Source: an uncultured Bacteroidales bacterium (GTDB lineage: Bacteria; Bacteroidota; Bacteroidia; Bacteroidales; Paludibacteraceae). From it: a DNA stretch of 5,450 bases. The stretch is taken from NCBI GenBank assembly GCA_903873355.1, contig CAIQOG010000439.1, forward strand, positions 1 through 5,450, given 5' to 3'. Below the pieces are notes generated by a model. It did no database searches. It saw only the letters and a list, made by a program, of their open reading frames with translations, and was not told the DNA's origin. Shown one piece after another: positions 143 to 3,540 of this stretch (position 1 is the first letter of the stretch; each line of letters opens with the position of its first letter). A program made the translations under genes and the position numbers.

Positions 143-173
143 AGAACCAAGAGTCAAGAACAAGAATCAAGAC
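143..173. repeat. Left arm of an inverted repeat built of 7-nt GANNCAA units
   Basis: This 31-nt arm begins AGAACCAAGAGTCAAGAAC and ends AATCAAGAC. Its reverse complement recurs at 266-297 with a one-base indel and one substitution. The arm has a 7-nt period: GAACCAA, GAGTCAA, GAAC-AA, GAATCAA. It lies 9-39 bp upstream of the start of the zinc dehydrogenase gene. Such CAAGARTCAAGAACC strings are, from memory, scattered between genes in many Bacteroidota genomes; the window itself shows only the two arms. Confidence 0.75.
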
Positions 174-265
174 GGTTTTGTATTGATAATTGATTTTGCA
201 CTGGTTGATTTTTATTATTTATATTTTTATTCTAATCTCACGATGAAAGCTCTTTGGAGACCTCT
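174..265. other. AT-rich intergenic spacer between the two inverted-repeat arms
   Basis: This 92-bp stretch between the aldolase/SDR gene and the zinc dehydrogenase gene is very AT-rich, especially 181-238. On the minus strand I find no TAnnTTTG promoter box and no GC-rich hairpin with a T run. A small imperfect palindrome around TGATAATTGAT at 184-194 is not convincing as an operator. I see no gene here. Confidence 0.5.
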
Positions 266-297
266 GTCTTGAATCTTGGTTCTTGACTCTTGGTTCT
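266..297. repeat. Right arm of the inverted repeat, overlapping the aldolase/SDR stop codon
   Basis: This 32-nt arm is the reverse complement of 143-173 apart from one indel and one substitution. Read on the minus strand it has five 7-nt units: GAACCAA GAGTCAA GAACCAA GATTCAA GACAGAG. The TAG stop of the aldolase/SDR gene (298-296) overlaps its outer edge, so the coding region ends exactly where the repeat begins. In the transcript the two arms could pair into a stem of about 30 bp with a 92-nt loop. Confidence 0.75.
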
Positions 298-2320
298 ACG
301 AAAGCATCACCTGCCCACCGGTAATTGGCAATGCCTGGCCGGTTTCGCCGCATTGTTCCATCAGGTAAAGTGCGCCTTTGGTAACATCCTCTGGTGAACA
401 TCCTTTTTGTAACGGAACTTGTGCCAAATAAAACGCTTTTACGTCATCTATAGTTTTTGCGCCGGGCACTTTTCCTGCATTTAAATACTGCACAAACAAG
501 CCGTTAACAGGGTCGCTCCACAGCGGACCTTCGTAGAAATTACCCGGACAGATAGAGTTCACTTTAATACGGAACGGAGCCAACTCCAATGCAAATGACT
601 GAGTCAAACCAATGCCGCCGAATTTACCACCGGCATAAGCGAAGTTTGCCTTGCTGCCACGCAATCCCGATTTAGAATTTACCTGAATAATATCAGCGTA
701 ATACTCCGGTGCGTATTTGGTTTGCAACTTCATAACCTTGCTAACCACTTTGGTGCAATAGAAATAGGCGTTATAGTTGATTTTCGTTACGAATTCGAAA
801 TCTTCAGGTGTCATATCGTCCAGTCCACCTGCGCGCAAAACGCCTGCATTACTAATGAAGGCATCGATAGCACCAAAGTTGCAAATGGTTTCGTGAACCA
901 GGTTTTCGATGCTTGGAATTTCGCTTACGTTGGTTTTTACAAAGATGGCACGGTTGCTTTTTGCCAAGGTGTTGAAACGTTCCACAGTAGCACGTCCTAC
1001 CGTTTCGTTCATATCAGCTACTACAATGTTAGCGCCTTGTTGTAACAAGCAACGGGCAATTCCTTCGCCAAAACCCTGTGCAGCACCTGTAACGATGATG
1101 GTTTTATTTTCTGCACGACCAGCTGCTCCACCTGCCGCCACACTGCGACGGTAGTTTTCCACTTCCCAATTGTCGATAAAGTCAATTTGCGCTTGCGTCA
1201 TTGGGTGAGGACCACCAAACGATTCGGCATAAAAAGCAATCTTCATCGCATCCTCGAATACGTCCAGAATAATGTCGCACTGAGCAGCATTATCGCCTAC
1301 GGCCACTAATCCGATTCCTTTCATCAGAATTACCTTTGGCTGATAACCAAACTTGGCGGTGAAAGCCGGAATTTGTTTCGCAGCCTCAGCCAGTACAGCT
1401 TCAGGTTCTTCGTCGTTGAGGAAAATATAGTTCGATTTGCAATAAACAATCGCGTCCGGAGTAAACGGTTTAGCAATTTTGGCCTGCGCTTCTTTGGTGT
1501 CGTAAAAAAGTTTTACCAATGCATTCTTACGTACTTTCAGGGTTTTCAAACCCTCGGAAGAAAGTATCATGCGAATGCCTGGAAGAACTTCGACTGCCCC
1601 CTGCCCCCCTGAAGGGGGAACTTCTTCTCCCCCTTCAGGGGGTTGGGGGGCAACTTTCTCAAGAGTACCCAGAATTTTATCGTAAAGTACTTTCACTTCT
1701 TCAATGCTGTTGGCAGCCACGAAGATTCCGTGGTTTTGCAACCAGATAACAGCAGGTTCGGCACCATCCTCGGCACGGAAAGCTTTGATAGCATCTTCTA
1801 CTTTTTTGAAAAGCACATAACCCGGATCGGTGTATTCGATGTACAATGCTTTTGCACCAAACAGCTTTTGCAAGTCGGCCTGAGCATTATTCGCACACAT
1901 CAAACCATTTACCAATGTTGGGTGCATGTGTACCACAAAGGCGAAGTCAATCACATTGTGCATCGATGTTTCCACCGATGGGCGTTTGCCTTTGGTAATG
2001 GTAGCATCGGCCAAATCATTTTTTACCTGTTCTTCACGTTCTGCCGCATTAGCGCTGTAGACTTTGTCGGACATGAGGTTCAGTTTAGCTCTGTCCAGTA
2101 CCGCAAAACCATCTTCGGTAATGGTTGCCAACGACGAGCCACTGGCTTTAACCCAGATTTTCTCTGCGTTTTTGTACGATGTATTTCCACCGCCTGCAAT
2201 CACGAAACGGCTATCGCGGCCGTAGTATTGCGATATTGAAATTAAGTCAGTCAAAGCTGCCCCCCAACCCCCTGAAGGGGGAGTAAGAGAGCGATTATCA
2301 CTTTTTTCTGTATTTTTCAT
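296..2320 (-). CDS. Bifunctional class II aldolase / short-chain dehydrogenase (rhamnulose-1-phosphate aldolase / lactaldehyde dehydrogenase type)
   Basis: A 674-residue two-domain enzyme, about the length I recall for the rhamnulose-1-P aldolase/alcohol dehydrogenase fusion family. The aldolase half shows GGGNTS at 43-48 (phosphate site), the putative catalytic Glu117 in the VETSMH motif, zinc ligands His131 and His133 in HMHP, and His197 in NHG. The SDR half begins near residue 404 with the TGxxxGxG dinucleotide loop (TGAAQGFG, 411-418), Asp436 ending strand beta2 (suggesting NAD over NADP), NAG at 491-493, and Ser549, Tyr562 and Lys566 as the catalytic set (YAGGK). By family, the aldolase splits a 6-deoxyketose-1-phosphate to DHAP and lactaldehyde, and the SDR oxidises or reduces the aldehyde. 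Substrate is inferred: rhamnose is likely, fucose or another deoxysugar possible. The start at 2320 lies 59 bp after the PHP stop, with no promoter box seen between them, suggesting co-transcription. Residues 14-21 and 224-242 are encoded by dispersed repeats and look like foreign loops. Confidence 0.9.
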   Translation of the reverse strand: MKNTEKSDNRSLTPPSGGWGAALTDLISISQYYGRDSRFVIAGGGNTSYKNAEKIWVKASGSSLATITEDGFAVLDRAKLNLMSDKVYSANAAEREEQVKNDLADATITKGKRPSVETSMHNVIDFAFVVHMHPTLVNGLMCANNAQADLQKLFGAKALYIEYTDPGYVLFKKVEDAIKAFRAEDGAEPAVIWLQNHGIFVAANSIEEVKVLYDKILGTLEKVAPQPPEGGEEVPPSGGQGAVEVLPGIRMILSSEGLKTLKVRKNALVKLFYDTKEAQAKIAKPFTPDAIVYCKSNYIFLNDEEPEAVLAEAAKQIPAFTAKFGYQPKVILMKGIGLVAVGDNAAQCDIILDVFEDAMKIAFYAESFGGPHPMTQAQIDFIDNWEVENYRRSVAAGGAAGRAENKTIIVTGAAQGFGEGIARCLLQQGANIVVADMNETVGRATVERFNTLAKSNRAIFVKTNVSEIPSIENLVHETICNFGAIDAFISNAGVLRAGGLDDMTPEDFEFVTKINYNAYFYCTKVVSKVMKLQTKYAPEYYADIIQVNSKSGLRGSKANFAYAGGKFGGIGLTQSFALELAPFRIKVNSICPGNFYEGPLWSDPVNGLFVQYLNAGKVPGAKTIDDVKAFYLAQVPLQKGCSPEDVTKGALYLMEQCGETGQALPITGGQVMLS
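1595..1652. repeat. Head-to-head pair of GC-rich 25-bp repeats inside the aldolase domain
   Basis: Copy A (1595-1619, plus orientation) is TG-C5-TG-C6-TGAA-G5-A. Copy B (1628-1652, minus orientation) is TG-C6-AA-C5-TGAA-G5-A. They match at 22 of 25 positions as an inverted pair around an 8-nt centre (1620-1627), and each also has a small C5-TGAA-G5 hairpin. On the coding strand they are translated without a stop as APQPPEGG (224-231), EEV, then PPSGGQGA (235-242). The peptide interrupts the segment between the aldolase core (ending about 222) and LPGIRMILSS (from 246). The arrangement resembles the paired palindromes of REP/REPIN-type elements; that classification is an inference. Confidence 0.85.
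2258..2282 (+). repeat. GC-rich 25-bp repeat (copy C) in the N-terminal codons of the aldolase/SDR gene
   Basis: This copy is TG-C6-AA-C5-TGAA-G5-A, identical over all 25 bases to the reverse complement of 1628-1652. On the coding strand it is read in frame as PPSGGWGA (residues 14-21), between the short polar start MKNTEKSDNRSLT and ALTDLISISQYYG, where the conserved aldolase fold begins. It lies 38 bp inside the start codon. Confidence 0.85.
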
Positions 2321-2372
2321 TGAGTAATTTAGTTTATATTTGATTCTACAAAACTTCCTTCTGGCTCAGTTT

Positions 2373-2398
2373 TCCCCCTTTAGGGGGTTAGGGGGGCA
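2373..2398 (-). repeat. GC-rich repeat (copy D) that forms the 3' end of the PHP gene
   Basis: Read on the minus strand this is TG-C6-TAA-C5-TAAA-G5-A, a 26-nt variant with one extra T and TAAA in place of TGAA. It faces copy C (2258-2282) across 90 bp that hold the aldolase start codon. In the PHP reading frame it encodes the last residues APLTP and then the TAA stop at 2382-2380, so the repeat itself terminates the gene. Confidence 0.8.
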
Positions 2399-3540
2399 GA
2401 TATTAGTAGATCTCCCAGATTTATAAACTCTTGTCTTTTTGAGCGATCAGCTTGTCCGTTGGCATCTACATAACCGCGCAAGCCTTGTGCGACCAAATGT
2501 TGGTGAGCCGCTACCACGCAAACACCTTCGTAGTTGATTTGCAACAAACGGTCGGTAAGTGGTGTGCTGTTACGCGCAAAAAGTTCAATCGGTTCCATAG
2601 CAGGCGTGTTGTGCTCGCTACCGAATGTCACCACAAAACCCTGGTCGTGCAAATAACTGGCGTATTTCTCCAGCAATTCAACACCATTACGGGTAGTGAT
2701 AAACTCCACTGAATGGAAACCGCGCTCGGTTAATTGCTTTGCCACTTTTTCCAAATCACCTTCGAAATCGGTGTAACCACCTTTGGCGTCGTCGGCCAAA
2801 AACGGATAGGTTGGTATGCCGCCACCTGCCACGATAATATCGCAAACAGTTTGCATAGGCAAAAATGCCTTTGGGTCTTCGGAAACAAAAGCGCCACCAC
2901 CTGCTTTGAGCAAGTTACCACGGATTTCGTTTTCCACTCCGGCAATGTCGTTTATTTCCGATTTCAATTCTTTTCCTCCGAAAAGTTTATGAAACAAAAT
3001 ACGAATATCCAACGGATTGTTATTACAAGCTTCGTACACTTTCAGGCGCAAGGCTTTGGCCAAATGACGTTCACGGATTGAACCTTTTGTCAAATCTGAA
3101 ATTATCCATTCGAAGTCGAGCGTAAATCCTGCTTGACATCCAACTAATAATAAATTCACTTTATTGCACATAGCTTCCACTTGTGCATTGGCTTCATTGG
3201 AAACGTCGGCCAATTGCGTTGCAAAAGGTTCAGCGAGTTGGAACGGATACGAAAGTCCTTTGCCACTCAGGTACGTGCGACCGGGATTTCCAGGATCGTT
3301 AACACGTAAACCGGCTTTTTGGTCGGCTTCGTTCAGACTGATAAACTCTATATTGAACAACGGATACAATCCGCGTTCCTTACAACCAACTGCCCAGGCT
3401 TCGTAGCCGGCAGTAGTATAAAAATCATTAATACCAACCACTTTTACGCCTTCGGCAACTGCCATATCGAGTGCCTGATTTAGTTCGGTGAATGCACTGA
3501 ACGAGTAAGGTGTGTGGAGGTGTGCGTTTACTTTTTTCAT
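2380..3540 (-). CDS. PHP-domain metal-dependent hydrolase, uncharacterised
   Basis: A 386-residue cytosolic protein with no signal peptide or membrane segment. The PHP superfamily is recognised by the N-terminal HxH metal motif (NAHLHTPYSFS, His7 and His9), Asp39 in the GIND motif, Glu65 in NIEF, His159 in the RERHLAKAL motif, and a late GSEHNTP motif (Ser308, Glu309, His310) in the position of the usual GSD/GSE-H metal site. PHP proteins are metal-dependent phosphoesterases and include histidinol phosphatases, nucleotide phosphatases and the polymerase PHP domain. At this length, with a long middle insertion (about 70-145), it is a stand-alone enzyme, not a polymerase. Its place just before the aldolase/SDR gene suggests a role in the same pathway, perhaps on a phosphorylated sugar or lactone; that is inference. 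The ATG at 3540 gives MKKVNAHLHT, placing the metal motif at the usual N-terminal edge. The last five residues and stop come from a dispersed repeat, so the native C terminus is probably altered. Confidence 0.85.
   Translation of the reverse strand: MKKVNAHLHTPYSFSAFTELNQALDMAVAEGVKVVGINDFYTTAGYEAWAVGCKERGLYPLFNIEFISLNEADQKAGLRVNDPGNPGRTYLSGKGLSYPFQLAEPFATQLADVSNEANAQVEAMCNKVNLLLVGCQAGFTLDFEWIISDLTKGSIRERHLAKALRLKVYEACNNNPLDIRILFHKLFGGKELKSEINDIAGVENEIRGNLLKAGGGAFVSEDPKAFLPMQTVCDIIVAGGGIPTYPFLADDAKGGYTDFEGDLEKVAKQLTERGFHSVEFITTRNGVELLEKYASYLHDQGFVVTFGSEHNTPAMEPIELFARNSTPLTDRLLQINYEGVCVVAAHQHLVAQGLRGYVDANGQADRSKRQEFINLGDLLISAPLTP

Follow-up and report, generated by a model that had tools for sequence, protein, structure and literature searches.

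An in-frame palindrome pair in an aldolase loop of a Paludibacter-like bacterium and its likeness to palindrome-flanked DUF559 inserts in core enzymes

An aldolase/dehydrogenase gene in the window (the whole stretch of DNA that was analysed, 5,450 nt) carries an inverted pair of palindromic repeats within its open frame, in the place of a variable loop. Palindromes of the same kind flank nuclease-type DUF559 domains that are written in frame into core enzymes of related genomes. We think it fairly probable that the aldolase pair belongs, as an in-frame form without the nuclease, to a family of palindrome-ended elements found in Paludibacter-like Bacteroidota.

The palindrome pair and the aldolase loop

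Among full-length matches to the aldolase ORF, the best comes from a Paludibacter MAG, and all 80 loci kept are from Bacteroidota; judged by sequence, the source is a Paludibacter-like member of the Bacteroidales. The Pfam Aldolase_II core covers residues 34-210 of the 674-aa ORF and the short-chain dehydrogenase domain residues 406-595. In an NCBIfam scan, the ORF did not reach the curated cut-off of RhaD_aldol-ADH (TIGR02632; 219.8 vs 567.75 bits) and likewise stayed below those of the PRK08324 models. Features of the window are listed in Table 1.

Table 1. Coordinates of the features in the window
Feature	Position	Strand	Basis
ORF, 674 aa, class II aldolase N-terminal domain and short-chain dehydrogenase	296..2320	-	ORF list, domain search
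Intragenic pair, F arm (gene sense: C-rich outer end first), residues APQPPEGG	1628..1652	-	
Intragenic pair, spacer, 8 nt	1620..1627	-	
Intragenic pair, R arm (inverted), residues PPSGGQGA	1595..1619	-	
Composite junction element: F palindrome, ~90-nt interior, R palindrome; single hairpin predicted, -60 kcal/mol	2257..2399	-	
F palindrome, 3' end of upstream ORF; gives final residues and stop codon (2380-2382)	2373..2398	-	
R palindrome, in frame, aldolase N-terminus, residues 13-21 (TPPSGGWGA)	2258..2282	-	
Start codon and leader codons within composite junction element; element-free relatives begin MKEIQQL	2283..2320	-	
Upstream ORF, 386 aa, weak PHP-domain match below Pfam cut-off; stop codon in F palindrome	2380..3540	-	
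Second junction bracket, unrelated inverted-repeat family; predicted -49.6 kcal/mol	143..297	-	

The initial annotation had described an inverted pair in frame within an enzyme ORF (1595-1652), with two more copies within 800 bp, and both statements were borne out. The 25-nt arms are complementary at 22 of 25 positions (88%) and are read by the ORF as residues 224-242, APQPPEGG-EEV-PPSGGQGA; the further copies lie at about 2258-2282 and 2373-2398, and all four palindromes of the window touch coding sequence. The pair had also been taken to add about 19 residues. It replaces a loop instead, with a net gain of three: across the columns of residues 215-247, the commonest length is 30 (119 of 200 sequences), and the window protein has 33. 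The proposal that a mobile-type palindrome became protein sequence in a loop that tolerates it, behind the Aldolase_II core, agrees with this stretch being the most variable of the protein. In the alignment of 200 sequences, the six most variable 20-residue windows after residue 25 all begin at 218-225, and variability is 1.80 bits over residues 224-243 against a protein mean of 0.58. The loops discussed here are probably exposed at the surface. The idea of a unique insertion did not survive in one respect, as relatives have loops of near-equal length with unrelated codons, and stood in another, the repeat clearly forming a genome-wide family. A one-off assembly error behind the pair is unlikely, because an identical protein comes from another contig (4198 bases) and a 98% identical one from 21 contigs.

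Among 120 close proteins, the loop occurs as discrete alleles: repeat-free (AVKFPVPTEERATCSCTEQ), compact pair, long pair, in which the second palindrome is of another type, and others. Called by peptide, an APQPP-type palindrome is present at the loop in 27 of the 120 proteins and at the N-terminus in 41, and every combination of the two states is seen: both in 12 proteins, the loop alone in 15, the N-terminus alone in 29 and neither in 64. When the loop and N-terminal regions are left out of the tree, at least 15 changes of loop state are counted across 200 sequences (shuffled mean, 29); the regex used for this count missed the pair-bearing row P0022, which is included in the counts on 120 proteins. 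The whole loop differs between two proteins that are 95% identical (P0001 and P0004), which suggests allele exchange. The corresponding loop of a distant Petrimonas MAG (L021) has a single R copy.

Some aldolases depart from these alleles. At three loci (L003, L005, L011) the loop holds a different short palindrome with the core GCGACTTNAAGTCGC, present in 17 of 48 genomes of the genus at no more than six copies each, and the loop thus seems to accept unrelated palindrome types. The L073 aldolase (match of 703 codons) has about 50 extra residues outside the loop, and a homologue that is 91% identical (G039:C27:175162-177186) has three stop codons within the match.

In mRNA, the pair might act as a mid-gene hairpin that pauses ribosomes between two folding units, a role that we regard as highly improbable. 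The 58-nt hairpin is predicted at -51 kcal/mol, and GGG and CCC make up 6% of the glycine and 16% of the proline codons, respectively, in one related genome. Moreover, the 15 distinct compact alleles have arm centres E/S (5), K/L (8), K/S (1) and Q/S (1), so that the arms change together in 13 of them, E with S and K with L (Fisher P 0.003 on 14, kinship ignored). As proof of a selected stem, however, this covariation is weakened by the intergenic pairs, whose loops match at chance level (27/48, expected 25, P 0.25). Many close relatives, including P0004, lack the hairpin altogether, long-spacer alleles combine palindromes of two types, and some of the pairs have decayed; with hairpin-free, long-spacer and decayed alleles in existence, it is unlikely that a pause is needed. 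Weak Rfam matches over the pair, to miRNA and scaRNA models of animal families, were all below the gathering scores and follow the hairpin; they were rejected.

Palindromes across the genus and at gene junctions

Family copies were counted in related genomes, 48 of the genus, mostly draft contig sets. The core CCCCCTNNAGGGGG is present in 40 of them, at 0-227 exact copies per genome. The reversed pattern occurs once in one genome and in none of the other 47, so the repeats are not due to chance. Positions relative to genes were classed in five genomes with our own codon-usage caller, which takes the first ATG as the start; for G001, G006, G009 and G013 the analysis was confined to the surroundings of exact cores, and G012, chosen partly for its listed copies, contributed 797,772 bases. 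The family had been expected to be genome-wide and mostly extragenic, and in these five related genomes 11 of 228 detections were called internal to genes, with 46 more at N- or C-terminal codons. In G012, a single copy of 73 was called internal, though 76% of the DNA is coding.

The copies obey an orientation rule. Near a gene end (up to 36 nt outside the gene, or inside it no more than 110 nt from the start or 45 nt from the stop), the outer TGCCCCC end points towards the nearest gene end in 143 of 147 detections. Of the four exceptions, three arise where a single overlapping palindrome was detected a second time in the opposite direction; when these are dropped, 143 of 144 agree (singles 77/78, pair members 66/66). 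On the stop side, where the result is independent of start calling, the figure is 54 of 55. The 59 neighbour pairs within 160 nt comprise 48 F-R, 8 ++, 3 -- and no R-F arrangements, and of 129 single copies, 23 have a decayed partner in inverted orientation on their inner side and none has one on the outer side, which is mostly coding and hence an imperfect control. As F-R neighbours dominate and decayed partners lie only on the inner side, the family unit is probably two-ended. Interiors are alike in a minority: the 12 best pairs score 38-89 (shuffled maximum, 34), with means of 19.7 and 17.8. By eye, no GTAG/CGTC tag is seen at the palindrome ends, inner ends being mostly GGGGGA.

Intergenic pairs are composites of F, about 90 nt and R that bracket junctions and supply stop codons upstream. 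In the window, the 2257-2399 element has its two ends on either side of the gap that separates the upstream ORF from the aldolase; relatives that lack this element have a different end of the upstream protein and an aldolase that begins MKEIQQL. Across the five genomes there are 32 N-terminal copies, 21 of them 37-45 nt after the ATG, and 28 copies stand in frame in N-terminal leaders. The leaders before 21 non-homologous genes resemble each other (0.182, against 0.127 for codon-shuffled leaders, with a maximum of 0.140 in 300 shuffles, and 0.076 for ordinary starts), and in-frame ATGs are not more frequent behind the palindrome than at ordinary positions in genes (6/28 vs 98/463). Because of this likeness beyond composition and the lack of an excess of downstream ATGs, the junction element apparently supplies the start codon and leader of the downstream gene. 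Among 57 copies upstream of a called start, an ATG lies 30-56 nt ahead of the palindrome in only 15, and the frames that begin there mostly run into stops; this limits leader donation to one class of copies.

Strict orientation at gene ends might also arise if the inverted palindromes were selected as intercistronic RNA hairpins, the intragenic pair being a stray copy. In G012, 17 of the 199 gaps have inverted repeats, from several families, on either side, compared with 1 in shuffled sequence, 7 with mismatched partners and 1 within genes; 16 of the 17 gaps separate co-directional genes, a class that makes up 164 of the 199. However, a two-ended element inserted between genes would give the same orientation without selection, and the inner-side position of the decayed partners, with the imperfect control noted above, also speaks against selected hairpins. 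We consider this explanation improbable.

Several further junctions have similar features. Positions 143-161 and 279-297 form a perfect 19-nt inverted repeat of a family distinct from the 25-nt palindromes. Its two arms are placed at the stop codon of the aldolase and a very short way upstream of the following ATG (134), and its geometry matches that of the 25-nt palindromes at junctions. Genes that by eye appear to belong to a trp operon (trpB, trpE, trpG-like) bear N-terminal palindrome leaders at L205 (G001) and L120 (G009), where palindromes are also found at several upstream stops. At L002, L003, L006, L007, L017 and L065, the bracket-free junction upstream of the aldolase seems, by eye, to be filled by other inverted repeats that are ACCACAAAG-like.

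DUF559 inserts and Y1 transposases

The initial annotation had missed the links to gene junctions and to DUF559 inserts. DUF559 is described as a Vsr-like domain of the PD-(D/E)XK type (PMC12907096). The 48 genomes hold 99 DUF559 matches, distributed over 37 of them; 43 lie in open frames of at least 600 aa and 38 of these are near full length. Among the best 30 of the 99 matches, 23 have flanking inverted repeats, compared with 4 of 600 shuffles. These flanks were found for 16 of 17 in-frame domains and for 7 of 13 free-standing ones, the other six staying below the threshold. Scanned in-frame hosts (10 of the 17 with Pfam, 9 with NCBIfam) include IleRS (two sites), ValRS, LeuRS, UvrA, MetH, PurL and a type ISP enzyme. 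Pfam at E 1e-6 reported no Hint/intein domain in the 10 hosts, and none at 1e-3 in two PurL proteins. The motif residues E, DF, E-DG-H and RF-N-E are identical in all 17 in-frame domains. The flanking palindromes of the in-frame cases examined are of several subfamilies, most of them other than that of the window.

In PurL, an intragenic F-R pair encloses the DUF559 domain; the inserts at L249 and L252 have palindromes of the window's subfamily, and a palindrome-ended DUF559 insert sits at the same PurL place in two genomes (L145 and L226). Allele counts were made on 30 loci for each of two enzymes, out of 44 genomes with a PurL match and 45 with a ValRS match. PurL was empty at 19 loci, full at 6 and not located at 5. 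The ValRS loop was empty (KIEGEDGYAVV) at 25 loci and longer at 5; four of these five have a palindrome (e.g. KIDAPQPPEGGVEEPQYAVI), and three of the four read APQPPEGG or near it. Three further ValRS loci have the arrangement palindrome-nuclease-palindrome. One and the same ValRS loop thus exists in three states: empty, palindrome-only and palindrome-nuclease-palindrome. In both enzymes the insert takes the place of a short segment, just as the pair does in the aldolase. Outside the genus, long frames with DUF559 occur elsewhere in the phylum, and inverted repeats reach the threshold in four of seven in-frame cases.

Over the 48 genomes, repeat counts correlate with DUF559 counts at rho 0.60 (0.55 given genome size) and with Y1-transposase counts at rho 0.36 (0.23 given genome size), kinship being ignored in both. 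Six F-R neighbour pairs are 300-5000 nt apart; two of the intervals hold DUF559 (L118, L145), and the other four, one of them in G012 C12, hold nothing that is clear as an autonomous element. An aldolase with a DUF559-sized insert was not seen in the 36 of 200 family genomes having a match (open frames up to 696 aa), nor among the 120 listed proteins, and a hint of an FTNEE motif in long-spacer aldolase alleles is weak, being equalled by 476 of 20000 shuffles.

The main rival to a nuclease-linked origin is an ordinary REP/REPIN-type pair that was moved by a Y1 (RAYT) transposase or another enzyme and landed by chance in a tolerant loop, the association with DUF559 being secondary. High copy number, small size, mostly extragenic position and inverted dimers fit this explanation, and other bacteria are known to carry REP dimers of 20-30 aa inside genes (PMC3733652). 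Y1 transposases were found in 9 of 11 genomes and are absent from both repeat-free ones, and the counts correlate weakly. Nevertheless, in 30 Y1 loci (up to 1.5 kb on each side) no transposase is flanked by the same palindrome; repeat copies occur only at L086 and L108, each more than 1 kb from the gene, and several other loci have different short palindromes instead. Neither these flanks nor the counts, which follow Y1 less closely than DUF559, support the transposase as mover, and palindrome-flanked DUF559 inserts at reused enzyme sites would be left unexplained. The tests made do not favour this rival, and we regard it as unlikely. Two Y1-transposase matches lie inside open frames of 1336 aa (G022:C10:74840-75100) and 1230 aa (G020:C301:6689-6997), perhaps as in-frame inserts.

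Proposed mechanism and relation to known elements

In the proposed scheme, a full element consists of palindrome F, a DUF559 nuclease and palindrome R; it takes the place of a short variable segment within a conserved enzyme and keeps the frame. Since no intein domain was found in the hosts scanned, the element appears to remain in the protein as an additional domain. The nuclease would probably cut element-free alleles next to conserved motifs, and repair would then copy the element in (homing). Selection would retain only copies that read through as Pro/Gly-rich linkers, and loss of the nuclease would leave a palindrome scar. Short forms keep the palindromes only, as one arm (ValRS) or a compact F-R pair (aldolase), and at gene junctions the same palindromes occur as the composites described above. 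The aldolase pair is read as a nuclease-free form because it is like the palindrome-only ValRS alleles in peptide, loop replacement and kept frame; it would once have carried the nuclease or spread with it. Translation of the inserts, nuclease activity, homing and absence of splicing are steps that we infer. On the other side, another enzyme may move the palindromes, as these far outnumber DUF559 (227 exact cores vs 7 in G012), and the palindromes might be landing sites that DUF559 entered later.

Inteins with homing endonucleases are likewise in-frame nuclease-type inserts in conserved enzymes with empty and full alleles. The inserts described here differ in their palindromic ends and DUF559 domain and in that no Hint/intein domain was reported in the hosts scanned. 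In-frame palindromes as such are already known from Rickettsia palindromic elements (RPEs), which occur in frame in unrelated genes, fused to host proteins (PMC10969869). Read from sequence, the palindromes in aldolase, ValRS and PurL also stand in frame and would be fused to their hosts; in contrast to RPEs, they are 25-bp arms in inverted pairs, belong to Bacteroidota, replace loops and include the kind that flanks a nuclease-type domain. Bacterial MITEs, also treated there (PMC10969869), are short, have two inverted ends and are known from in-frame fusions, whereas the interior here is only partly conserved. REP/REPIN sequences with RAYTs are small high-copy palindromes and inverted dimers, mostly extragenic, with some known intragenic REPs and REP dimers, and can supply stop codons (PMC3733652); the present family differs in lacking the GTAG/CGTC tag (by eye) and a flanked transposase (30 Y1 loci), and in its outer-end-to-gene orientation and DUF559 link. 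In the TnpA-REP subclass 2.6 of Bacteroidetes, atypical structures flank the Y1 transposases and recur elsewhere in the genome (PMC6006769), whereas the palindromes next to Y1 genes here are different and shorter. Searches of an open-access library turned up neither the orientation rule at junctions nor leader donation nor palindrome-flanked DUF559 inside enzymes.

Tentatively, and with some doubt, these elements may be a separate selfish class: palindrome-ended, splicing-independent homing inserts, written in frame into core-enzyme loops as a permanent DUF559 domain, which degrade into translated palindrome scars, with the aldolase pair as an example, and at junctions donate the upstream stop and the downstream start and leader peptide. 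In-frame palindromes have so far lacked a known agent, and here the same palindrome kind flanks a nuclease-type domain in core enzymes. With empty, scar and full alleles at one site, the origin of protein-coding palindromes becomes directly testable. Database start codons and enzyme lengths in some Bacteroidota may include mobile sequence, and the findings suggest a route by which selfish DNA could add linkers and domains to conserved proteins without splicing.
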